In this document: positions 1,150-15,461 of the stretch, piece by piece | Position numbering within the stretch: position 1 is the first letter of the stretch | How the letters are laid out: each line of letters begins with the position of its first letter | Source: Granulicella sp. | GTDB taxonomy: Bacteria > Acidobacteriota > Terriglobia > Terriglobales > Acidobacteriaceae | Length of the DNA: 17,557 nucleotides | Assembly (NCBI GenBank): GCA_003133205.1 | Contig: PKWK01000097.1 | Span: 1 to 17,557, forward strand | Direction: 5' to 3' | Translations under genes and position numbers: made by a program | The notes under the pieces: generated by a model | Database searches by the model: none | The model's input: only the letters and a program-made list of their open reading frames with translations | What the model was told of the DNA's origin: nothing

Positions 1150-1170
1150 CAAGCGGAAAGTTTCCGCTTG
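1150..1170. promoter_or_regulatory. 21-nt perfect inverted repeat overlapping the receptor promoter -35
   Basis: The arms CAAGCGGAAA (1150-1159) and TTTCCGCTTG (1161-1170) are perfect reverse complements around one central G. The right arm runs into the TTGACA box at 1168-1173. There is no T-tract after it, so it is unlikely to be a terminator. A second operator, or a hairpin left from the upstream element, are the likely readings. Confidence 0.5.
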
Positions 1171-1197
1171 ACACTCCTCTGCCTAAGCAGCTACCTT
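1168..1197 (+). promoter_or_regulatory. Candidate sigma-70 promoter for the uptake cluster
   Basis: A perfect TTGACA -35 (1168-1173) is followed after 18 bp by TACCTT (1192-1197), a weak -10 matching TATAAT at three positions. Transcription would begin near 1204, leaving a leader of about 215 nt before the receptor ATG. The placement is supported by the LacI-type operator, which lies immediately downstream where it would block initiation. Confidence 0.45.
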
Positions 1198-1206
1198 CCA
1201 ATGTCA

Positions 1207-1220
1207 TAGAAACGTTTCCA
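1207..1220. promoter_or_regulatory. LacI-family operator
   Basis: The 14-mer TAGAAACGTTTCCA contains the perfect 10-bp palindrome GAAACGTTTC with a central CpG. It matches the general LacI/PurR/CcpA-type pattern TGNAANCGNTTNCA at nine of ten specified positions, with A for G at 1208. It lies just past the predicted -10 of the promoter before the TonB-dependent receptor gene, a classic repressing position. The LacI-family protein encoded at 9847-10875 is the obvious candidate to bind it. I saw no second copy before the other genes of the cluster. Confidence 0.65.
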
Positions 1221-1420
1221 CCAAAATATCCACGGAGAAGTTACGGATGCTTCGACAATATGCCAATAGGACCCCAATCTAAGCTGCCAGGGTGCGGCTA
1301 ATGCCGTCCGCATGGAAAGCTTTCTATGATACAGGGCTATGTGTTACAGGTTTTGAAAACGCAAGGATCTTAAACTTCGGAAGCGGCAAGGCAAAGCTGG
1401 TTCTGCTTGCAGGAGAAGTC

Positions 1421-4400
1421 ATGAATCGAAACTATTGGATACTATTTTTCACGGCCTGGATCGTCCTCGTGAGCGGGACGATCCAAGCGAACGCGCAGGC
1501 CGTGTCGATTGGGCAGATCAACGGTCGTGTGACGGATGGCTCCGGCGCGGTCATACCGCGGGCCAAGGTCCAGGCAACGCAATTGGATACCCATACGGTG
1601 CACGATGCGGAGGCCGGCGACCAGGGAGAGTTTGTCTTCAATAGCCTACCTATCGGGTCGTACGAGCTGAGCATCAGCGCGCCCGGGTTCAAGGAATACC
1701 GGCGTCCCCGCATCGACCTCCACGTCGGCGACAACACCCAGATCAATGCAACGCTCTCAGTGGGCGAGGTCAATGAAGTCGTGACCGTCTACACGGCGAC
1801 AAGCACGGTGGATACTACGGACAACACCATCCGGCAGGTGATCGGTCAGGCGCCCATCGTCGACCTTCCTTTGAATGGACGGCAGCCCACGCAACTGGTG
1901 CTTCTCTCGGGCGCATCCATCACGGTGCCCTCCACCGCCACCGGTGACATCAATACCAGCAAGAACTTCTACAGTTCCACCACGATCTCCGTCGCGGGCG
2001 GGCAGGCAAACGGAACCAACTACATACTCGATGGTGGCGACAACAACGATCCGATGACGAACGTGAATCTGCCGTTCCCGTTCCCAGAGGCGTTGCAGGA
2101 GTTTAGTGTTGACACAAGCACGCTGCCTGCTCAGTACGGCCTTCATCCGGGCGGTGTCGTCAACATCGTCACGCGCTCGGGTTCCAACAGCTTTCATGGA
2201 GATGCATTCGAGTACATCCGCAACTACGCTGTCAACGCCCGCAATTACTTCGCTACGACCACGGACAGCCTAAAGCGCAACCAGTTTGGCGGTGACATCG
2301 GCGGGCACATCGTTCGCGACAAGCTCTTCTTTTTCACGGGATATCAGGGGACGCGCAACCAGCAGAGCCCCACCTCCATCAGTTACGTGCCGACGCCGGC
2401 GATCTTGCAGGGTAACTTCAGTACGTTTGAATCTGCAAGCTGCGTGGCAAGCGGCAGTCGTACGCTCATCAATCCCAGCACCGGCCAGCCGTTTTCTCCG
2501 GCGAACCAGATTCCGACATCTTCCTTCAGCCCGCAGGCAGTGGCTTTGACCAAGTATCTTCCGCAAACGAGCGACCCCTGCGGAAAAGTCCTCTACAGCA
2601 TCCCCACCACGGGAAATGAGGACCAGATCCTTGGGCGAATCGATTCCGTCATCAGCAGCAAGCAGTCTCTCTTCGGCCGCTACTTCTTCGATGACTATCG
2701 GAATCCGGGCGTCTTCCAGAACAACAACCTCTTGCTCACCACCCGGGCGGGCAATCTCGAACTGGCACAGTCATTTACGCTTGGGCACACGTATGCCTTC
2801 ACGCCAAACACGGTGAACTCTCTCCATCTGACAATCACGCGGCTTCGCAATAATCGAGGACCTGCTTCCAATGTGATCAACCCTGGAGCCCTGGGAGTCA
2901 ACTCCTACGATTATCTGCCGAACAACTTGCAGGTCACGGTCGGAAGTCTGTTCAGCGTCGGATGCGGCAGCTGTTCACCGGCCCACATCAACCGCGATGA
3001 ATTGCAGGTCGCGGACGATGTGAACCTAGTTCACGGTCCTCATTCCTTCGTCTTCGGCGTGGATGTCATCCGCGCCCGGCTGAACAGCCTGACTCCCTCG
3101 GATGCAAATGGCAACTTCACCTTCAACGGAACCTTCACTTCCGATGCGATGGCAGACTTCCTGTTGGGCAACCTGAGTAATTACGACCAGAGTGCACCAC
3201 TGGCCACCAACTACCGCGGCACCTTCTACGGCTTCTATGGCCAGGATACGTACAGGGTGACGCACAAGCTGACGATCAACGCGGGACTGCGCTGGGAGCC
3301 GTATACGCCGGCCACAAATACGAACGGGCTGGGCGCAGACTTCAGCATGAGCGCTTATACCGCGAACCAGATCAGTTCCGTATACGTCAACGCGCCGCCG
3401 GGAGTGAGCTATTACGGCGATCGAGGCGTCTCCAAGTCGTTGACGCATAACTATTGGCCGAATTTCTCTCCACGTATCGGTGTCATTTATGTGCCCGGGG
3501 CAGAAGCACACGATACATTCCGCGCCGGCTTCGCGATCCTGACAGACACGCCCGAGTTATATTTCGCGCAGCACTCGGTCTCCAGTCCCCCGTTTGCGGA
3601 TTCCATCTACCTCACGGCGCCGGCCGGAGGCTTTGCGAATCCGTGGGGCGGCTACGCTGGCGGAAACCCTTTTCCAATCGCTTTTCCGCCGTCGAAAACC
3701 GCACCGTTCCCAACCTTCGGCCAGTACGTCGCGTATCCGCCAGACGTTTTGATACCAACCCACGTCGCGGAGTGGAACGTCAGCTATGAGCACCAGTTCC
3801 CTGACGGCTTCCTGCTCAAGGCGACCTACCTTGGAAATTCGACGACTCACATCCTCGGTTCGGATGAACTGAATCCCGCGCAGTACATTCCCGGCATGTG
3901 CGGAGCGACTGCCTGCTCGACGACGGCCAACACCAATCAGCGGCGAATCCTGAACACGATGAATCCCAACGCGGCCAACAAGTTTGGTGACGTCGAAGAG
4001 TTGTCCAGCGAGGGGAACGCATCGTACAACGCCTTCCTAGTGACAGCCGAGCGTCGCCTGGCGAACGGCTTCACGCTGCTTACGAACTACACCTACTCGC
4101 ATTGCCTGAGCGATCTGGACTTCTCCGGTGATCCGTACCAGCCGATCTACGAACAGCCGTTCAATCGCGCGGCCGACTACGGTAGCTGCTCATTCGACGT
4201 GCGCCATCTGTTCAACACATCGATTGTCGCCCGGAGTCCTGAAGTGGGTTCGAAGTTCACCAGGCTTCTGCTCGGCAACTGGCAGATGGCTCCGCTGATC
4301 CGCTACCAGAGTGGGCTACCGGTCAATATCCTGACAGGGACCGACCGTTCTCTCTCGGGGCAGAATCTGGATCGGCCCAACCAAGTTCTCTCCGACATCT

Positions 4401-4711
4401 ACACCGTGAACCGGGGACCGCGTTCATGGGTGAATCCAGCAGCCTTCACCCCGAATGCCCTGGGAACCTTTGGGAATCTGTCGCGTAATGCCGCACGCGG
4501 ACCGGGCTATTTTGAATTTGACGCTGCGGTGGATCGCCTCTTTCCCATCCACGAAACTCTCAACGGGGAACTGCGCCTGGATGTGTTCAATGTTCTCAAC
4601 TGGGTCAACTTCGGGAATCCGAACGGAACCCTATCCAGTTCAAACTTCGGCAAAATCACAACCGCCAACGACCCGCGCATTCTTCAACTTGCGGTGAAGT
4701 TGCATTTCTAA
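1421..4711 (+). CDS. TonB-dependent receptor, Oar-like, with carboxypeptidase-regulatory-like domain
   Basis: This outer-membrane active transporter or porin-like receptor is powered through TonB. I chose ATG 1421 because AGGAGA lies 5 nt upstream and a signal peptide begins there: MNRN, a hydrophobic stretch at residues 5-19, and a likely cleavage after ANAQA near residue 27. The frame is open upstream to 1292, but those 43 codons would sit in front of the signal peptide. Residues of about 30-115 form a CarbopepD_reg-like beta domain (INGRVTDGSGAVIPRA; NSLPIGSYELSISAPGF). Next comes a plug-like region at about 135-250 (VDLPLNGRQ; YILDGGDNND; GGVVNIVTRSGSN). The rest is a large beta-barrel ending in the aromatic C-terminus LQLAVKLHF. 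At 1096 aa it is normal for the Oar-like family. It is the first gene of the cluster, directly behind the promoter and operator. The substrate cannot be read from sequence, but a saccharide is likely from the neighbours. Confidence 0.93.
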   Translation: MNRNYWILFFTAWIVLVSGTIQANAQAVSIGQINGRVTDGSGAVIPRAKVQATQLDTHTVHDAEAGDQGEFVFNSLPIGSYELSISAPGFKEYRRPRIDLHVGDNTQINATLSVGEVNEVVTVYTATSTVDTTDNTIRQVIGQAPIVDLPLNGRQPTQLVLLSGASITVPSTATGDINTSKNFYSSTTISVAGGQANGTNYILDGGDNNDPMTNVNLPFPFPEALQEFSVDTSTLPAQYGLHPGGVVNIVTRSGSNSFHGDAFEYIRNYAVNARNYFATTTDSLKRNQFGGDIGGHIVRDKLFFFTGYQGTRNQQSPTSISYVPTPAILQGNFSTFESASCVASGSRTLINPSTGQPFSPANQIPTSSFSPQAVALTKYLPQTSDPCGKVLYSIPTTGNEDQILGRIDSVISSKQSLFGRYFFDDYRNPGVFQNNNLLLTTRAGNLELAQSFTLGHTYAFTPNTVNSLHLTITRLRNNRGPASNVINPGALGVNSYDYLPNNLQVTVGSLFSVGCGSCSPAHINRDELQVADDVNLVHGPHSFVFGVDVIRARLNSLTPSDANGNFTFNGTFTSDAMADFLLGNLSNYDQSAPLATNYRGTFYGFYGQDTYRVTHKLTINAGLRWEPYTPATNTNGLGADFSMSAYTANQISSVYVNAPPGVSYYGDRGVSKSLTHNYWPNFSPRIGVIYVPGAEAHDTFRAGFAILTDTPELYFAQHSVSSPPFADSIYLTAPAGGFANPWGGYAGGNPFPIAFPPSKTAPFPTFGQYVAYPPDVLIPTHVAEWNVSYEHQFPDGFLLKATYLGNSTTHILGSDELNPAQYIPGMCGATACSTTANTNQRRILNTMNPNAANKFGDVEELSSEGNASYNAFLVTAERRLANGFTLLTNYTYSHCLSDLDFSGDPYQPIYEQPFNRAADYGSCSFDVRHLFNTSIVARSPEVGSKFTRLLLGNWQMAPLIRYQSGLPVNILTGTDRSLSGQNLDRPNQVLSDIYTVNRGPRSWVNPAAFTPNALGTFGNLSRNAARGPGYFEFDAAVDRLFPIHETLNGELRLDVFNVLNWVNFGNPNGTLSSSNFGKITTANDPRILQLAVKLHF

Positions 4712-4823
4712 CAACAGGTTCCACAGATTGTGCTTCCATGGCTCTGTAGGAATCGGACGGCACAACACTCACACGACGCCATACGCAAATCAGCAGCTAC
4801 ACCCACCCGCACTGGAGGATACA

Positions 4824-6530
4824 TTGAAGCAATACAAGACGCGCGCCCTTGAAGTCCATGATTTCGTCCGAATCTGGGATCTTGCAGAAGTTCGGAGGCG
4901 CCTCGCCTTCATGGTAGCCAACGACATGAATGCGCTCGTACTCCATGAGCCAGGGATCGTCGACAAGCTCGTCTTTCCCGCCCAGTTTCTGGGCGGTGAG
5001 TCCCGCGGTGAGAACCTCTTCGAGCTGTACCAGCAGATCGATCACAATATTTACTACTATGCGTTACGTGAGAACCTAAATCCGTTCCGGCGCGACTATC
5101 TTACGCAGCTGATCGCTGAAGCACGGGATGCGGGGATCGACGTGTACCTGGAAGACAAGGAGCTGTGGTTCAAGGACTTCATCCTGAAGAGCCACCCTGA
5201 AATCCTGAAAAACGGTGTCTTCTGTCCGAGCAAGAGCTTCTGGTGGGAGGATTTTCTACCGGCAAAGTACCGCGAACTCTTCATCATGCTTCCTGACCTA
5301 GCCGGGGTGGTAACTTCCTTTGGCACGGGGGAGAGCAGGCTCGCCATCAGCAACATGTTTGCGTGCGATTGCGAAGAGTGCAAGAACATCAATCCCGCGA
5401 CCTGGCATCGCAACATGGTCCGTGGAATGTACGGTTCGTTCCGCGATGCCGGCAAGAAGCTAGTCATCCGTGACTTCATCTACCAGAAGGAGGAGCAGGA
5501 CCAGTTCGCGCAGGCGCTTGAGATTCTCCCTATCGAGATTGCGTTGTCCTTGAAGAACACACCCCATGACTTCTATCCCACCTTCCCGGACAACCCGCTG
5601 ATTGGCAAGGTTGGCAGCCGCGAACAGTGGATCGAGTATGACGTCTACGGGCAGTACTTCGGCTGGGGCATCGCTCCCAGCATCATGACCGATGACCTGA
5701 CGCATCGCCTGCAATACGGTCTGGAGAACAACGTCAGCGGTTACATCATGCGCACAGACTGGGAGGGAGTGCAGGACTACTCCTGCTTCGATACCGCGAA
5801 CCTCATCAACCTCTATGCAGCGGCAATTCTGGGCAGGAACCCGGACGCCGAGAAGAGGGAGATCTATACCCGCTGGATTGTCGAGGAGAAGCTTACTGCG
5901 GAAACCACGTCGCCCAAGGCCCTGAAGGATTGCGTGGACTGGGCGATGAAGGTGATGGAACAAACCTGGCCGCTGATGAAGAAGACAGCCTTCGTGAATG
6001 GCACGGTCTTTTCTGACAACAGCGCATTCCACGTCAATCTTGGTCAGCCGACCTGGGTCGCAGAGACGCATCACAGCCTGAAGAACTGGCAGACCGGAGC
6101 CAAGGATGCCCTGGCGATGGATGACGACAACGTGCGTGCCATCCTGACCGAGAAGGATGAAGCCCATCAATTGACGAAGGCTCTCTTCGAACAAGTATCC
6201 GAGGGCAATCCCGGATTCAAGCAGGAGGTCTATGACGATCTCGTGCAGCGCTTCGACTTCTTCCGTGTGTACGCCGAGGGTTTCCGTCTGACGACGCGGA
6301 TTTATATCTTCGGCAGATTGTTAGAAGAGAGGAAGGACAATCCTCCCAGCTTCCTTTCACAGTCTTTGCCTGAACTGCTGGAAGATGGCATTAGCCAGTT
6401 GAAAGAGTACCAGGCGAAGCTGACGGCCTCGGGCTACTTCAGAAGCTATCCCGCCAATGTGCTGCTTGGATACGAGCGCCTCTCCTGCTACTTGAAGGAT
6501 GCGCAACGGAGGCTGACAGCAGCATCCTGA
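4824..6530 (+). CDS. Putative cytoplasmic glycoside hydrolase-like protein (distantly GH67/GH115-like)
   Basis: About 568 aa from TTG 4824. I chose this start because GGAGG lies 5 nt before it and the conserved-looking sequence begins directly after; an in-frame ATG at 4728 has no ribosome binding site and adds 32 low-complexity residues. There is no signal peptide, so it should act in the cytoplasm. The N-terminal half alternates strands and helices like a TIM barrel (RIWDLAEVRRRLAFMVANDM; NALVLHEPG; AGIDVYLEDKELWF). A GTGES segment carries an acidic residue at E170, and a CxCxxC motif follows at residues 181-186. Later text (WIEYDVYGQYFGWG; DTANLINLYAAAILGRNPDA) recalls the C-terminal part of GH67 alpha-glucuronidases, including the 'aNLYAfGrlaWNP' region. 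The final 150 residues are helical. Family placement is by resemblance only, and the catalytic residues are not assigned. It follows the receptor by 112 bp and probably acts on the imported compound. Confidence 0.6.
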   Translation: MKQYKTRALEVHDFVRIWDLAEVRRRLAFMVANDMNALVLHEPGIVDKLVFPAQFLGGESRGENLFELYQQIDHNIYYYALRENLNPFRRDYLTQLIAEARDAGIDVYLEDKELWFKDFILKSHPEILKNGVFCPSKSFWWEDFLPAKYRELFIMLPDLAGVVTSFGTGESRLAISNMFACDCEECKNINPATWHRNMVRGMYGSFRDAGKKLVIRDFIYQKEEQDQFAQALEILPIEIALSLKNTPHDFYPTFPDNPLIGKVGSREQWIEYDVYGQYFGWGIAPSIMTDDLTHRLQYGLENNVSGYIMRTDWEGVQDYSCFDTANLINLYAAAILGRNPDAEKREIYTRWIVEEKLTAETTSPKALKDCVDWAMKVMEQTWPLMKKTAFVNGTVFSDNSAFHVNLGQPTWVAETHHSLKNWQTGAKDALAMDDDNVRAILTEKDEAHQLTKALFEQVSEGNPGFKQEVYDDLVQRFDFFRVYAEGFRLTTRIYIFGRLLEERKDNPPSFLSQSLPELLEDGISQLKEYQAKLTASGYFRSYPANVLLGYERLSCYLKDAQRRLTAAS

Positions 6531-6579
6531 CGCCGCTGCGGTTCCCTTTAAATGCACGACCATCACCAAGGAGGAGATT

Positions 6580-8562
6580 GTGAAGCTGGAGAAATCGATG
6601 CCGATGCGTGGGATACGCATCCCGCGCGATGTGTACCGCGATAAAGTGCTTGGCTGCTGGCTCGGCAAAAACATCGGCGGTACATTGGGGGGACCACTCG
6701 AGGAGAAGTTTGGGCGCGACGAGTTATTCAATGTTTCGTGGTATCCGGACCTCCCCGAGGGGGGCATCCCGAATGACGATCTTGAGCTGCAACTCATCTT
6801 CTTTCAGGCCCTGCAGGATGTCGGCCCGGGCCTCACTGCGCGGAACCTCGCGGATTACTGGCTGGATTGCGTACGCTATAACTTCGACGAGTACGGGCTG
6901 AGCAAGACCAATCTCGTGAAAGGTCTTGTTCCCCCCGTTTCGGGATGGCACAACAACTGGTTTCGGGACTGCATGGGCAGCCCCATCCGCTCGGAGGTCT
7001 GGGCGTGTGTTGCTCCGGGAGCGCCGGAGATCGCGGCCCGTTATGCATTTGAGGATTCCATCTGCGATCACGGCGGGGGCGAGTCGGTGTTCGGCGAGAT
7101 TTTCAATGCGGTGGTGGAGTCATGCGCCTTTGTGGAGAGTGACAAACTCAGGCTTACCGAAGCGGGGCTCAGCGCCATTCCCGCCAGTTCGCTGACCGCA
7201 AAAGCGATCCAGCGGGTCGTCGAGCTCTACCGGGGTGGGGTGGATTGGGTCACCGCACGCAACACCATCAAGGACGAGTTCTATCTGGCGCTCGCGCAGT
7301 ATTCCCCAATCAACATGGGCTTCCAGACCATCGGATTCCTCTACGGCGAGAATTTCGCCGACGCAATCTGCAAAGCGGTCAACTGCGGCTGGGATACCGA
7401 TTGCACCGGCGCCACGGTCGGGGCGATGTTCGGCATATTGCTTGGGGCACGAGGGCTGCCAGATGCCTGGGTCGCACCGCTTCGCGATGAAATCAGCACG
7501 AATCTGCCCAATGGCGGCATTCGTCACCTGCGTGCGCCAACCGATATCCGCGCTTTGACGGACCAGGTGTGCGGAGCCGCTCCCACGGTCCTCCACTACT
7601 GGGGTTCGGATACGGTGCTTGCTGCAGCAGGCTCCGCGCCAGCGCCAGAAGTGGCGCCGCAGTTTCATCTCGATACAGATTGGCTTGCGAGCTATGACCC
7701 TGGCACGATTCGCTGGGATCTAAGCACCCTTCGCTGCGCGCTCCGCTACCACCATCACGCTGCCATCCTTGGCTCGGAACCCGCCGTCTTTACAGTGGAG
7801 TTGGAGAACCCGCATCCGGAGCCTGTTTGCGGAACGATGCAGATCCATCTGCCTGCGCACTGGACGCTGGGCTCAGATGCCGGCTCCGAGGAGTTCAACT
7901 TACCCGGTCAAGGTCGGCTCGCTCGCCAGTACCGCGCGTCTGCTTCGCCTTCTGAGATCTTCGACTCCAATCTCGGCACGATCCAAGTCCGGCTGGACGA
8001 ACGCCCCGCCTTAGAGGCGTTGCCCCTCGTTCTGCTCGGTGGAAACCGATGGCTCGTCTCTCCGGTCGACACCGAAGCCCGTGATGCCGATTCGAGTCGA
8101 GCGGCTCATCGCGGCCTGATGACCTCGTGTCCGACCGGATGGCTGGAGTTCTGGTCGCCCGGGAATGAACTGATGATCGAGCCGATGTTTCAGGGCAGAC
8201 CAGGCGTCATGAAACTGTTGCATTGCATCGAATCGCCTTCGGAGCAGGAGGTCATCATTGGGTTCTCAAACAATAGCCGCATGAAGATGTGGCTCAACGG
8301 CGAGTTCCTGCATGAAACACGGGAGACCACCCCAATCCGTCCAAATCAAGGGAACGGCGGAGGCGACGGTGCAAACTATACGGAGGCCATTCTGAGAAAG
8401 GGAATGAACCAGGTTCTGATTCAACTGGAAAGATTCGATACACCGGTTGAGGCTCACTTCACCTTGGGCAAGCCCGATCGCACCTACTTCAAATGCCTAG
8501 GCCATGCCATTCTGGGATTGAGGCGCTCTCTGCTGCCCTGGGATCGTGAGTCTCTCGCTTGA
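6580..8562 (+). CDS. ADP-ribosylglycohydrolase-fold protein with C-terminal jelly-roll-like extension
   Basis: 660 aa from GTG 6580, with AAGGAGG 5 nt upstream. Residues of about 20-330 match the ADP-ribosylglycohydrolase (DraG/ARH) fold. They include DKVLGCWLGKNIGGTLGGPLE near the N-terminus with E41, an IPNDDLELQL segment (N65, D66, D67), and the hallmark NCGWDTDCTGATVGAMFG at 268-285. The last places D272, D274 and T276 at the second half of the binuclear metal site. The usual TDD of the family is NDD here. Residues of about 380-530 are beta-rich (FTVELENPHPEPVCG). Residues of about 545-640 (RMKMWLNGEFLHE; LRKGMNQVLIQLERF) resemble the sugar-binding or PA14-like jelly rolls appended to glycosidases. 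There is no signal peptide. The gene starts 49 bp after its neighbour. Classic members remove ADP-ribose from proteins. In a sugar operon, and with this extension, hydrolysis of an N- or O-glycosidic bond in a small metabolite is more likely, by inference. Confidence 0.8.
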   Translation: MKLEKSMPMRGIRIPRDVYRDKVLGCWLGKNIGGTLGGPLEEKFGRDELFNVSWYPDLPEGGIPNDDLELQLIFFQALQDVGPGLTARNLADYWLDCVRYNFDEYGLSKTNLVKGLVPPVSGWHNNWFRDCMGSPIRSEVWACVAPGAPEIAARYAFEDSICDHGGGESVFGEIFNAVVESCAFVESDKLRLTEAGLSAIPASSLTAKAIQRVVELYRGGVDWVTARNTIKDEFYLALAQYSPINMGFQTIGFLYGENFADAICKAVNCGWDTDCTGATVGAMFGILLGARGLPDAWVAPLRDEISTNLPNGGIRHLRAPTDIRALTDQVCGAAPTVLHYWGSDTVLAAAGSAPAPEVAPQFHLDTDWLASYDPGTIRWDLSTLRCALRYHHHAAILGSEPAVFTVELENPHPEPVCGTMQIHLPAHWTLGSDAGSEEFNLPGQGRLARQYRASASPSEIFDSNLGTIQVRLDERPALEALPLVLLGGNRWLVSPVDTEARDADSSRAAHRGLMTSCPTGWLEFWSPGNELMIEPMFQGRPGVMKLLHCIESPSEQEVIIGFSNNSRMKMWLNGEFLHETRETTPIRPNQGNGGGDGANYTEAILRKGMNQVLIQLERFDTPVEAHFTLGKPDRTYFKCLGHAILGLRRSLLPWDRESLA

Positions 8563-8613
8563 AATGGAGCGTCGTTTATCGCGGAGCGCGCGCAGCCAGG
8601 ATATGAGACCAAG

Positions 8614-9690
8614 ATGATGCTTGCCTCCGTCGCAACCCAACTCTCGACAGCGGGACTGATCATTGCGGGCGTCATGTCCTGCACCAATGTGCTGATGGAA
8701 GTGGCGCGCAAGAAGGCCGTCACCCAACGATCCCTTCTGCCCGTCATGTTCTGGAGCCACCTGTTTGACGCCCTCGTCTTCGGGCTCGTCCTGCTGGTGC
8801 GGCGTTGGCATACATCGGCAATCACCATCCAGGATGCGGGCAATCTATTCGGAATCATGGGGCTGCACCTTGCGCCGCTTCCCACCTACTGTATCTATCT
8901 CGCGATCGATCTCCTGATCCTCTCCCTCTGCAATTGGCTCTTCTTTCGCGCGCTGCAGGTCTCACCCATGTCCACGTCGGTGCCGTTTCTCGCGTTCACC
9001 TCGGTACTGCTGGTACCTGCAGCCTTCCTCATACTTCGAGAGCTTCCCAGCGCAGCCAAACTGCTCGGCGTTCTCCTCACCATCGTCGGCTCACTCGTCA
9101 TGCACAGAAGGCTCTTCGCCACTGGCTTACTTGCCCCGGTGAAGGCAATCTTTCACGAAACAGGAAGCCGGTACATGCTCACGGTCTCGCTGCTCCTGGC
9201 TATCTCCAGCCCTTTGGATAAGAGGCTTGTGATGATGACAGGAGTGTTCACCCAAAGCTTCGTGTATGGCGTTGGAATGTGTGTCTTCTTTCTTGCCCTT
9301 GCTCTCTCTCATCGCGATCCGCTCTGGTCGGTGCTGAAGTCGGGCCTGCTCTGGATCGCGCTTGCCGGAATTCTGGACGCCATCAGCCTTCTCCTACAGT
9401 ACCAGTCCTATCACTATCTCGATGTCGTCATTGCCGTCAGTATCAAGCGTGCAGGAATCGTGTTATCTGTTCTGTTTGGCTGGCTCTTCTTTTCGGAGCG
9501 CGATCTTGTGAATAAGTTGATCGCCACCTCGGTAATGTTTATCGGTGTCGTCATTCTGTACTTGCCAATCACCGTTCCGCAGGCAGTCGCCGCCGCCGCA
9601 GCGACTCTGTTGGCCATGCTGGTCGCGCTGACATTGACCGGCGACAAGGCGCCACGGAGAAAGCCTGCGGAGTCAGCGGCGCCTAGGTGA
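8614..9690 (+). CDS. DMT/EamA-superfamily inner-membrane transporter
   Basis: 358 aa with ten or eleven hydrophobic segments, at roughly residues 10-30, 43-61, 86-111, 119-140, 146-163, 185-200, 212-233, 246-265, 274-296, 301-320 and 322-345. These form two repeats of about five helices, as in the drug/metabolite transporter superfamily. The second repeat ends with the family-like sequence IKRAGIVLSVLFGWLFFSER. I used ATG 8614. A weak AGGA lies about 12 nt upstream, and the adjacent ATG at 8617 is an alternative. It begins 51 bp after the ADP-ribosylglycohydrolase-like gene, so it is probably co-transcribed. DMT proteins can import or export. In this operon it may bring the periplasmic substrate inward or expel a by-product. 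No MFS or ABC sugar transporter is present in the window. The direction and substrate are unknown. Confidence 0.75.
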   Translation: MMLASVATQLSTAGLIIAGVMSCTNVLMEVARKKAVTQRSLLPVMFWSHLFDALVFGLVLLVRRWHTSAITIQDAGNLFGIMGLHLAPLPTYCIYLAIDLLILSLCNWLFFRALQVSPMSTSVPFLAFTSVLLVPAAFLILRELPSAAKLLGVLLTIVGSLVMHRRLFATGLLAPVKAIFHETGSRYMLTVSLLLAISSPLDKRLVMMTGVFTQSFVYGVGMCVFFLALALSHRDPLWSVLKSGLLWIALAGILDAISLLLQYQSYHYLDVVIAVSIKRAGIVLSVLFGWLFFSERDLVNKLIATSVMFIGVVILYLPITVPQAVAAAAATLLAMLVALTLTGDKAPRRKPAESAAPR

Positions 9691-9846
9691 GGCCAGACCA
9701 TGGGGTTCCTCAAGGTTATTACAGCTAAGGCGCATCCATTCTCCTGGCAACCTGCGTGCGGCCGGATTTTAAGGAGTGTCGATCTAAAGCCTTCTTTTTA
9801 TCGGGAGGGGTTGGGCCGTAGACTTATCTTATCAGCGGAGGCCTAG

Positions 9847-10875
9847 ATGGTATCCATACACGATGTTGCGCGCAGGGCAAAGGTCTCGATTGGGACGGTA
9901 TCCCGCGTTCTCAACGAGAGTCCGCAAGTCACGGTTGCAACCCGAAGGAACGTAAAACGTGCGATCAACGAGCTGGGGTATAGCCCGAACCCCTCGGCAC
10001 GTGCGCTGCGAAGCAACCGAACCCGCCTGATAGCGTTGACCATTCCGGAGCTCACAAACCCGTACTTCGCGGCGATGGTCGAGGGGGTGCAGCACGTTCT
10101 CGCACAGGCACAGTTTCAACTCATCCTGTGCAATGCGGGCGCCGATGACAAGGCAGAGCCGGAGTACCTGGACATGCTCGCGAGACGCCAGGTTGACGGC
10201 CTGATCGTCGCATCGCGACGCTTCTCCGCGGCAACAGAGAGTCAGAAGTATCTACTTTCCCTGGGCAAGAAAGGATTTCCGATCGTCTCCCTTGGTCAGC
10301 GCTTTAACGCAGATCCATTGTACTTCGATTCCATCAGCACGGATACGTCCACGGGAATGCGCGAGGCGATGATGCACCTTCTCGAGGCGGGTCACACCGA
10401 GATCGCCTATTTCGGTGCCCCGGAAGGCATCGCCACGCTTCGCCTCGATACCTATAAAGCTGCGCTGGCTGAACGCGGCATCCGCGTTTCCTCGTCTCTT
10501 ATGTTTCGCGTCGACCCAACGCTCGAGAACGGGTTCAAACTCGCTGAAACCTTGCTAAGACGGCGTCATCGTCCCACCGCGATCATGGCTGTCAACGATA
10601 TCGTCGCCATAGGTGCGTTGATGGCATTTCAAGAACACGGCGTCTCCATCCCCGAAGAGATGAGCATCGTCGGCTTTGACGACGTGCCTCTTGCGTCCAT
10701 CATCCGGCCTCACTTGACGACTGTTTTCCAGCCCAAGTACGAACTGGGGCGCCTTGCCGCGGAACGCCTCCTTGGCAGGCTAGATAAGAGCGTGACCACT
10801 TTTCGCTCTATTTCCCTTTCATCGCGCCTCGTGGTTCGTAGTTCAACGGCACGTGTGCGCCTGAAAAAGCACTGA
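9847..10875 (+). CDS. LacI-family transcriptional regulator
   Basis: 342 aa from ATG 9847, with GGAGG 5 nt upstream. Residues 3-24 form the LacI helix-turn-helix (SIHDVARRAKVSIGTVSRVL). The hinge helix SARALRS carries Leu54, the residue that intercalates at the central CpG of LacI/PurR-type operators. From residue 60 onward a periplasmic-binding-protein-like sensor domain follows (LIALTIPELTNPYFAAMVEG; QVDGLIVASRR; AIMAVNDIVAIGALMAF; MSIVGFDDVPLASIIRPHLT). It is complete and of normal family length. It lies 156 bp after the transporter, last in the cluster, and could be co-transcribed or have its own promoter. I saw no clear operator at its own start. The operator at 1207-1220 is its probable target, with a sugar from the pathway as likely inducer. 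Confidence 0.93.
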   Translation: MVSIHDVARRAKVSIGTVSRVLNESPQVTVATRRNVKRAINELGYSPNPSARALRSNRTRLIALTIPELTNPYFAAMVEGVQHVLAQAQFQLILCNAGADDKAEPEYLDMLARRQVDGLIVASRRFSAATESQKYLLSLGKKGFPIVSLGQRFNADPLYFDSISTDTSTGMREAMMHLLEAGHTEIAYFGAPEGIATLRLDTYKAALAERGIRVSSSLMFRVDPTLENGFKLAETLLRRRHRPTAIMAVNDIVAIGALMAFQEHGVSIPEEMSIVGFDDVPLASIIRPHLTTVFQPKYELGRLAAERLLGRLDKSVTTFRSISLSSRLVVRSSTARVRLKKH

Positions 10876-11102: not shown

Positions 11103-11837
11103 TTAAGACTTGCGATTTCTCGGTCGGATGGAGTTTTGGCGAGGCACAACACACGAAACGATGCCGGCAAGTACACCGACCTTGAGGAAGATGCGGCCAA
11201 ACTCCTCTTGCCGCCGCTGAAGCAGATAGAGCGCTCCTACAGCTGACATCACGAATGCGCCCGTAATCACGGCGCCTGACATGTTGTGCGCGTACTGTAG
11301 CCAAGCCCATGGATTTCCCAGAAGGGCCCAAAAGCTGCTGACCTCATAAAGGCCGTTCGGTAGAATCCTGTATCCCACCGGATGCTGCATCCAAGCGTTC
11401 GCTACGATGATAAAAAAGCCCGATATCCAAGAGCCCAGAAACACAAGGAATGCTGCCGCCCAGTGCCACCATTGAGAGAGCCGCTTTTCGCCGAAGAGAA
11501 ACAAGCCGAGAAAGGCTGATTCAAGAAAAAATGAGAAGATACCCTCCATCGCAAGAGGCATCCCTATGACGCCCCCGGTACGGCGGGAAAATTCCGACCA
11601 GTTTGTTCCGAATTGAAACTCCATTGGGATGCCGGTGACAACTCCCAGGAGAAAGTTGACGGCAAATATCCGGGCCCAGAACCGGGCGGCCACACCGTAT
11701 TTCTCATCCCGCTTCCAGATGGCCATTGTCTTCAGGACGACAATCAGCAGCGCCAGCCCCATGGTTAGCTGAGGAAACAGATAGTGATAGGTAATCGTGA
11801 AGGCGAAATGAATCCGATCGAGCGATAAAGCGTCCAT
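11103..11837 (-). pseudogene. cydA: Cytochrome bd ubiquinol oxidase subunit I, C-terminally truncated
   Basis: The N-terminal half of CydA, read right to left from ATG 11837 with GAGGAGA about 7 nt upstream. The start and first 230 residues look intact: RIHFAFTITYHYLFPQLTMGL with the heme ligand His18, GIPMEFQFGTNWSEF, FFLESAFLGLFLFGEKRLS with the conserved Glu, and YAHNMSGAVITGAFVMS with the second heme-ligand His. After GVLAGIVSCVV the family sequence stops near 11155 and is replaced by about 14 unrelated residues. Full CydA has about 450-520 residues. The Q-loop, the methionine ligand of heme b558 and the later helices are missing, and no cydB follows. This is a deletion or rearrangement scar, and the product cannot be a working oxidase. 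The unrelated sequence to the left holds no identifiable insertion element. Confidence 0.88.

Positions 11838-12791: not shown

Positions 12792-12795
<4 letters not shown>
12778..12795 (+). other. Five-codon mini-ORF overlapping the aceE start
   Basis: ATG AAT ACA AAG TTA TGA encodes MNTKL, and its stop overlaps the aceE ATG in an ATGA junction. The first ten bases, ATGAATACAA, are repeated at the aceE start (12792-12801), so the segment looks like a 14-bp tandem duplication of the initiation site. AGAGAACGAG upstream is better spaced for this ATG than for the aceE ATG, so re-initiation or coupling is possible. Whether it is translated is unknown. Confidence 0.35.

Positions 12796-15461
<2,666 letters not shown>

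Follow-up and report, generated by a model that had tools for sequence, protein, structure and literature searches.

What would a bacterium take up and degrade with a barrel enzyme of glycoside hydrolase (GH) type and an ADP-ribosylglycohydrolase (ARH)-fold protein encoded side by side? The question is raised by contig PKWK01000097.1 of Granulicella sp. (17,557 nucleotides, all of it analyzed and referred to here as the window), in which five genes in a row occupy positions 1421-10875 of the + strand, separated, in order, by 112, 49, 51, and 156 bases. A sequence-only reading of this DNA had described five same-strand genes behind one promoter and operator. The observation of the cluster was confirmed as described, with the start of the receptor gene moved to 1421. 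The five genes are as follows:

1421-4711, + strand: TonB-dependent-receptor-like outer membrane protein (CarboxypepD_reg and OMP_b-brl_4, PF25183)
4824-6530, + strand: GH67-like barrel enzyme, 568 amino acids, predicted inverting alpha-uronidase (structure and residue alignment)
6580-8562, + strand: ARH-fold enzyme with two C-terminal beta-sandwich domains, 660 amino acids
8614-9690, + strand: EamA/DMT-family inner membrane permease (profile match)
9847-10875, + strand: LacI-family regulator (profile match)

Gene content, folds, catalytic residues, and a conserved pairing of the two hydrolase genes were established by computation. We consider it reasonably likely that the genes form a LacI-repressed cluster for the use of a small glycoside with an alpha-linked uronic acid, on which the two hydrolases act as proposed below.

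The two hydrolase genes each start behind a clear ribosome-binding site, and no signal peptide was seen on inspection of either protein by eye. The barrel protein resembles GH67 enzymes (Geobacillus AguA and Cellvibrio GlcA67A) in its barrel, its helical C-terminal region, and three catalytic carboxylates, at 11-15% identity over the structural alignments. These carboxylates are encoded as follows:

5331-5333, + strand: E170, aligned with the GH67 general acid
5568-5570, + strand: D249, aligned with GH67 D364 (Geobacillus numbering)
5634-5636, + strand: E271, aligned with GH67 E386 (Geobacillus numbering)

They are spaced 79 and 22 residues apart in the barrel, exactly as in GH67. Because the three residues are kept at identical spacing, the protein is likely an inverting alpha-uronidase. 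AguA is cytoplasmic, as the window barrel is predicted to be. The Pfam middle domain of GH67 was matched weakly in 18 of 28 barrel relatives (best, 1.3e-5). The GH138 alpha-galacturonidase BP0997, a rhamnogalacturonan II enzyme, differs in length (694-860-residue chains versus 568 amino acids), and classical GH115 proteins, which are possible kin, were lower-listed Foldseek matches. GH20 and GH84 were rejected as kin, with larger root mean square deviations (mostly 6-9; one core-domain row, 3.4).

The ADP-ribosylglycohydrolase domain (PF03747) of the second hydrolase spans residues 25-295; the match was well above the cut-off, and the fold was confirmed by structure comparison. Its two metal motifs are encoded as follows:

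6772-6780, + strand: N65-D66-D67, counterpart of the ARH T-D-D metal motif
7393-7404, + strand: D272-T273-D274-C275, counterpart of the ARH D-x-D-T metal motif

The carboxylates of the two-metal site (E, DD, and DxD, the metal-binding residues of ARH enzymes) were kept as E41, D66, D67, D272, and D274 in all 24 aligned ARH proteins. The catalytic fold and these carboxylates are thus common to DraG/ARH ADP-ribosyl hydrolases and the window protein, which differs from them in Asn65 and Cys275, a GWDTDC signature, two C-terminal beta-sandwiches, and its sugar-operon context. Proteins with the ARH fold are usually interpreted as enzymes that take off ADP-ribose. The NCBIfam equivalog cut-offs were missed for both DraG (27.8 versus 337.05 bits) and Tri1 (26.5 versus 490). 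The protein is probably a glycosidase that acts on the same molecule as the barrel enzyme, and since ARH enzymes act on alpha-ribofuranosyl bonds, an alpha-furanoside is suggested as its substrate.

The sequence-only reading had made its case depend on the two enzyme genes being neighbors in relatives, and it came through this check. A barrel profile scan of GTDB species genomes yielded 60 loci, and an ARH gene was found directly downstream of the barrel gene in seven, precisely the loci whose identity reaches 50%. Among the remaining 53 loci, no six-frame stretch of at least 60 residues matched ARH even at E 10, within at most 10 kb of flank and, in four of them (L025, L028, L053, and L057), within fewer than 1,500 bases beyond the barrel match. 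The paired loci belong to Spirochaetales DFE_TRE1, Rectinema subterraneum, and five Lachnospiraceae; named strains with the pair are Schaedlerella arabinosiphila DSM 106076, Mediterraneibacter massiliensis Marseille-P2086, and R. subterraneum SURF-ANA1.

Protein clusters gave a similar picture. Among the first 82 barrel clusters, 19 matched an ARH cluster in the length of the longest contig, compared with none of the remaining 38 and a chance expectation of ~0.5 over the whole comparison, a shared contig being read solely from this equality of length. The window's own pair stands outside the 19, as its two clusters list different longest contigs, and one of 120 ARH rows (P0210, contig 4280) was left out; no barrel row has 4280, and the count is unaffected. 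DMT clusters also matched ARH clusters in six cases (~0.4 expected), four of them on contigs longer than 19 kb (92282, 60448, 73202, and 19378), and 92282 occurs in all three lists. In a 98-row tree, the 18 ARH-paired barrels (seven loci, 10 database proteins, and the window) formed one clade with 100% support in the Shimodaira-Hasegawa-like approximate likelihood-ratio test (SH-aLRT). Of the 19 contig-matched proteins, 10 entered the tree, from which sequences scoring no more than 350 bits or with lengths beyond 500-720 amino acids were dropped; absence of ARH was assumed for five database proteins.

In the reverse direction, the ARH protein was searched in 247 Spirochaetota, 240 Verrucomicrobiota, and 397 Lachnospiraceae genomes. 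The full-length form was found in three (G001, G002, and G763), each with the barrel gene upstream; these are the genomes of paired loci L001, L004, and L006 and not independent new cases. The other genomes above threshold carried a lower-scoring subfamily (339-414 bits; 501-823 amino acids, mostly near 520), and none of the 29 loci fetched, which cover part of the Verrucomicrobiota matches and have about 1.5 kb of flank at most, had a barrel nearby. The Verrucomicrobiota proteins, a separate and common subfamily (L072-L091; 501-588 amino acids), were present in 27 of 240 genomes at E ≤ 1e-100, with a GH67-like gene nearby in 0 of 20 loci.

The neighbors of the pair bear on its substrate. All seven paired loci contain an ATP-binding cassette (ABC) importer, of the SBP_bac_1/8-plus-permeases type in the five Lachnospiraceae and of oligopeptide type in the two spirochaetes. 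Five loci also have a histidine kinase gene upstream, identified by Pfam in L004, L005, and L006 and by cluster in L003 and L008. An SGNH/GDSL hydrolase gene follows the ARH gene in L001, L004, L005, and L008 and is fused to it in L003, which makes five of the six paired loci with sequence beyond the ARH gene (it is absent from L006, and L002 ends there). Divergent genes in both spirochaete loci include those for an ABC ATPase, a LacI regulator, a radical-SAM protein, and a sulfatase. The sulfatases look cytoplasmic because nothing precedes the catalytic domain, which starts at residue 15 in L001 (whose protein has a CAPSR motif) and at residue 8 in L002. Together, the importers, the SGNH hydrolase, and the signal-less sulfatase of these relatives favor the breakdown of an acidic, decorated oligosaccharide in the cytoplasm. 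The closest barrel clade that lacks ARH (L015, L016, and L027, joined at an SH-aLRT of 88) has a GH31 gene in all three loci, as if GH31 filled the place of the second enzyme.

The barrel family extends well beyond the paired clade. Its nearest organism-named member is from Opitutaceae (P0022), and the plasmid collection held only two distant matches. Two to four GH67-like paralogues occur per locus in, for example, L021, L024, L034, L035, L043, L048, L050, L055, and L057; in several multi-barrel loci they come from widely separate tree branches, and some stand beside tripartite tricarboxylate transporter genes. The neighbors of distant barrels include such transporters, short-chain dehydrogenases, a lactate-racemase-like gene, and a 2-hydroxyacid dehydrogenase gene, and therefore fit with acidic substrates. 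These barrels appear to make up a large, unexplored family for such compounds. In the residue alignment (92 rows, comprising 91 hits and the window protein, with one repeat, L065 from the genome of L001), Cys 134, 181, 183, and 186 were near-invariant (88 of 92 rows each). The CxCxxC follows closely on the catalytic acid, at a point where the GH67 sequences have a gap, and the four cysteines are a possible metal site.

The ARH fold had been described as no standard part of polysaccharide loci, which was only partly right. A distant ARH match was found in 34 plasmid records, of which five were examined, one of them without annotation. Each of the other four has ABC-transporter genes next to the ARH gene; LacI is present as well in three and ribokinase in one. 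It accompanies LacI and ABC genes in Sinorhizobium sp. B11 (699 amino acids, GWDTDC signature), LacI and a solute-binding protein in Enterobacter hormaechei (711 amino acids, GWDTDC), and LacI, ABC, and ribokinase genes in Mycolicibacterium arabiense (408 amino acids, GWDTDS); in Agrobacterium, it is beside UgpC. The Sinorhizobium, Enterobacter, and Mycolicibacterium operons come close to the window cluster in that LacI and an ARH protein occur with a solute-binding protein or a complete sugar importer; no GH67-like gene is named among their annotated neighbors. The Sinorhizobium plasmid (L093) has two tandem ARH-fold genes of different length at 5756-9076 in one LacI/ABC operon, which also carries coenzyme A (CoA) transferase and CoA ester lyase genes.

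ARH-fold genes have also been described in the yegTUV set of Escherichia coli, with the regulator YegW/GgaR, said to sense ADP-glucose (PMC10819704), and in an ARH-permease-ribokinase set of staphylococci (PMC3637587 and PMC3900703). Both sets are like the window in combining an ARH-fold gene with a transporter; they have a sugar kinase instead of a GH67-like partner, none being named there, and the staphylococcal ARH gene, at 987 bases, is about half the length of the window's. The presence of ARH-fold genes in sugar or nucleoside operons is thus already known and not new. A literature search, with subscription papers mostly outside it, for an ARH plus GH67-type pair or for ARH in polysaccharide loci returned nothing on the pair.

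Three elements upstream of the receptor gene are candidates for control of the cluster:

1150-1170, no strand: perfect 21-nt palindrome (10-nt arms, 1-nt center), candidate operator
1168-1173, + strand: TTGACA, candidate -35 hexamer, overlapping the 21-nt palindrome
1209-1218, no strand: GAAACGTTTC palindrome, candidate LacI-family operator

The 21-nt palindrome is above chance (none in 200 shuffles with up to three mismatches allowed). The shorter one is of the central-CG type of LacI-family operators; as chance alone would give 0.56 matches in the window when one mismatch is tolerated, only its position speaks for it. No good -10 element was found for the TTGACA, and a promoter consensus scan listed nothing in the upstream region. 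The longest receptor frame opens at GTG 1292, and ATG 1421 was judged the likeliest start. Pfam identified no SusD family member among the five cluster proteins, and the receptor-barrel gap is only 112 bases; the cluster differs from a Bacteroidota-type SusC/SusD polysaccharide utilization locus in having no SusD-like lipoprotein beside the receptor.

Taken together, the glycoside would cross the outer membrane through the TonB-type receptor and the inner membrane by way of the DMT permease or some other porter. The GH67-like enzyme would then cut the alpha-uronosyl bond by inversion, relying on its conserved acid/base carboxylates. The ARH-fold enzyme would use its two-metal site to cleave another glycosidic bond in that molecule, an alpha-furanoside being the likeliest target; we infer the substrate class, the order of the two cuts, the part played by the permease, and the function of the operators. 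LacI would leave its operators once a product or the glycoside binds. Action in the cytoplasm is proposed because neither hydrolase has a signal peptide, nor do the spirochaete sulfatases. Uptake and catabolism, the GH67-like barrel, hydrolysis in the cytoplasm, and the pairing itself had all been part of the sequence-only reading and hold up; its view of the ARH fold as no standard part of such loci was too strong, and nothing found points to the ADP-ribose-like substrate that was among its suggestions. A decorated acidic oligosaccharide fits better than a nucleotide, given a partner of alpha-uronidase type and the sulfatase and SGNH hydrolase seen in relatives.

Several results weigh against a uronide-degrading cluster. 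The window barrel has no Pfam match; the GH67 middle domain was not reached at E 0.01 or 0.1, and the protein begins at the barrel, without the GH67 N-terminal domain (aligned GH67 residues start at 139, and Pfam gave no match to this domain either). In the ARH-fold protein, the Thr ligands are replaced by Asn65 (24 of 24 proteins) and Cys275 (23 of 24), and its chemistry may therefore differ from that of ARH enzymes. The accessory ABC, SGNH, and sulfatase genes belong to relatives and not to the window, no uronate-catabolic or SusD gene was found among the scanned window genes, and DMT permeases are not well known for importing oligosaccharides. A search of 96 collected loci for the GAAACGTTTC type gave 0 matches and hence no footprint support.

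Other explanations start from the same genes. The ARH-fold protein, instead of being a glycosidase for the imported compound, could strip ADP-ribose from a protein (or arginine) and in this way control the operon or the transporter, much as DraG controls nitrogenase. The strong PF03747 match and the retained metal carboxylates and DraG/ARH fold are in keeping with this; the missed equivalog cut-offs, the two replaced Thr ligands, a 300-residue C-terminal extension, and the sugar-type transport genes beside ARH in annotated loci are not, and the scanned or listed proteins of annotated loci included no ADP-ribosyltransferase. We regard this as very unlikely. It is unlikely, to a lesser degree, that the substrate is a ribosyl or nucleoside-like compound (ADP-ribose, a nucleotide sugar, or an alpha-ribofuranoside) from which the GH67-like protein trims a uronate. 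The action of ARH enzymes on alpha-ribofuranosyl bonds, the distant ARH gene that shares an operon with ribokinase, and what the cited papers say of the staphylococcal and yegTUV sets would support such a substrate, whereas no ribokinase or nucleoside transporter was found among the scanned window genes, and the sulfatase, SGNH hydrolase, and sugar- or oligopeptide-type importers of relatives point to oligosaccharides.

The hydrolase pair might also be one conserved unit among chance neighbors, with receptor, permease, and regulator serving other functions. The wider gaps before lacI (156 bases) and before 4824 (112 bases) would allow this, as would the abundance of DMT relatives of this type (232 at E ≤ 0.001; the three organism-named ones among 120 listed are Acidobacteriia/Terriglobia, Bryobacteraceae, and Candidatus Solibacter), the receptor family being common in Acidobacteriota, and the pair going with ABC importers instead in the seven genome loci. 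Set against this are the single strand of all five genes behind the palindromes and the excess of DMT-ARH contig matches, and we consider chance neighborhood decidedly improbable. A more far-reaching version of the uronide proposal is put forward tentatively: two unrecognized carbohydrate-active families, a GH67/GH138-like inverting alpha-uronidase with a four-cysteine site close to the acid and a true glycosidase of ARH fold with altered metal ligands, may jointly break down, in the cytoplasm, a sulfated or acylated uronide brought in from outside.

Just past lacI, the gene for cytochrome bd subunit I (11103-11837, - strand) is truncated: its profile match covers positions 1-224 of 418, after which it runs into unrelated sequence. 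The cluster thus borders a broken gene, which may mark an insertion or rearrangement border. Farther on, a gene for a chlorite-dismutase-family protein (PF06778, 15616-16521) adjoins a pyruvate dehydrogenase E1 gene (12792-15461), and the 3' part of a vitamin B12-dependent methionine synthase gene (activation domain, PF02965; 16757-17557, - strand) is open at the window edge. No RNA families or tRNAs were found in the window.

The apparent novelty lies in the union of an ARH-fold gene with a GH67-type enzyme, recurring in distant bacteria. The conserved pairing offers a testable route to show that a branch of the ARH fold works as a nutritional glycosidase, and it could give a substrate to many proteins now annotated as ADP-ribosylglycohydrolase.
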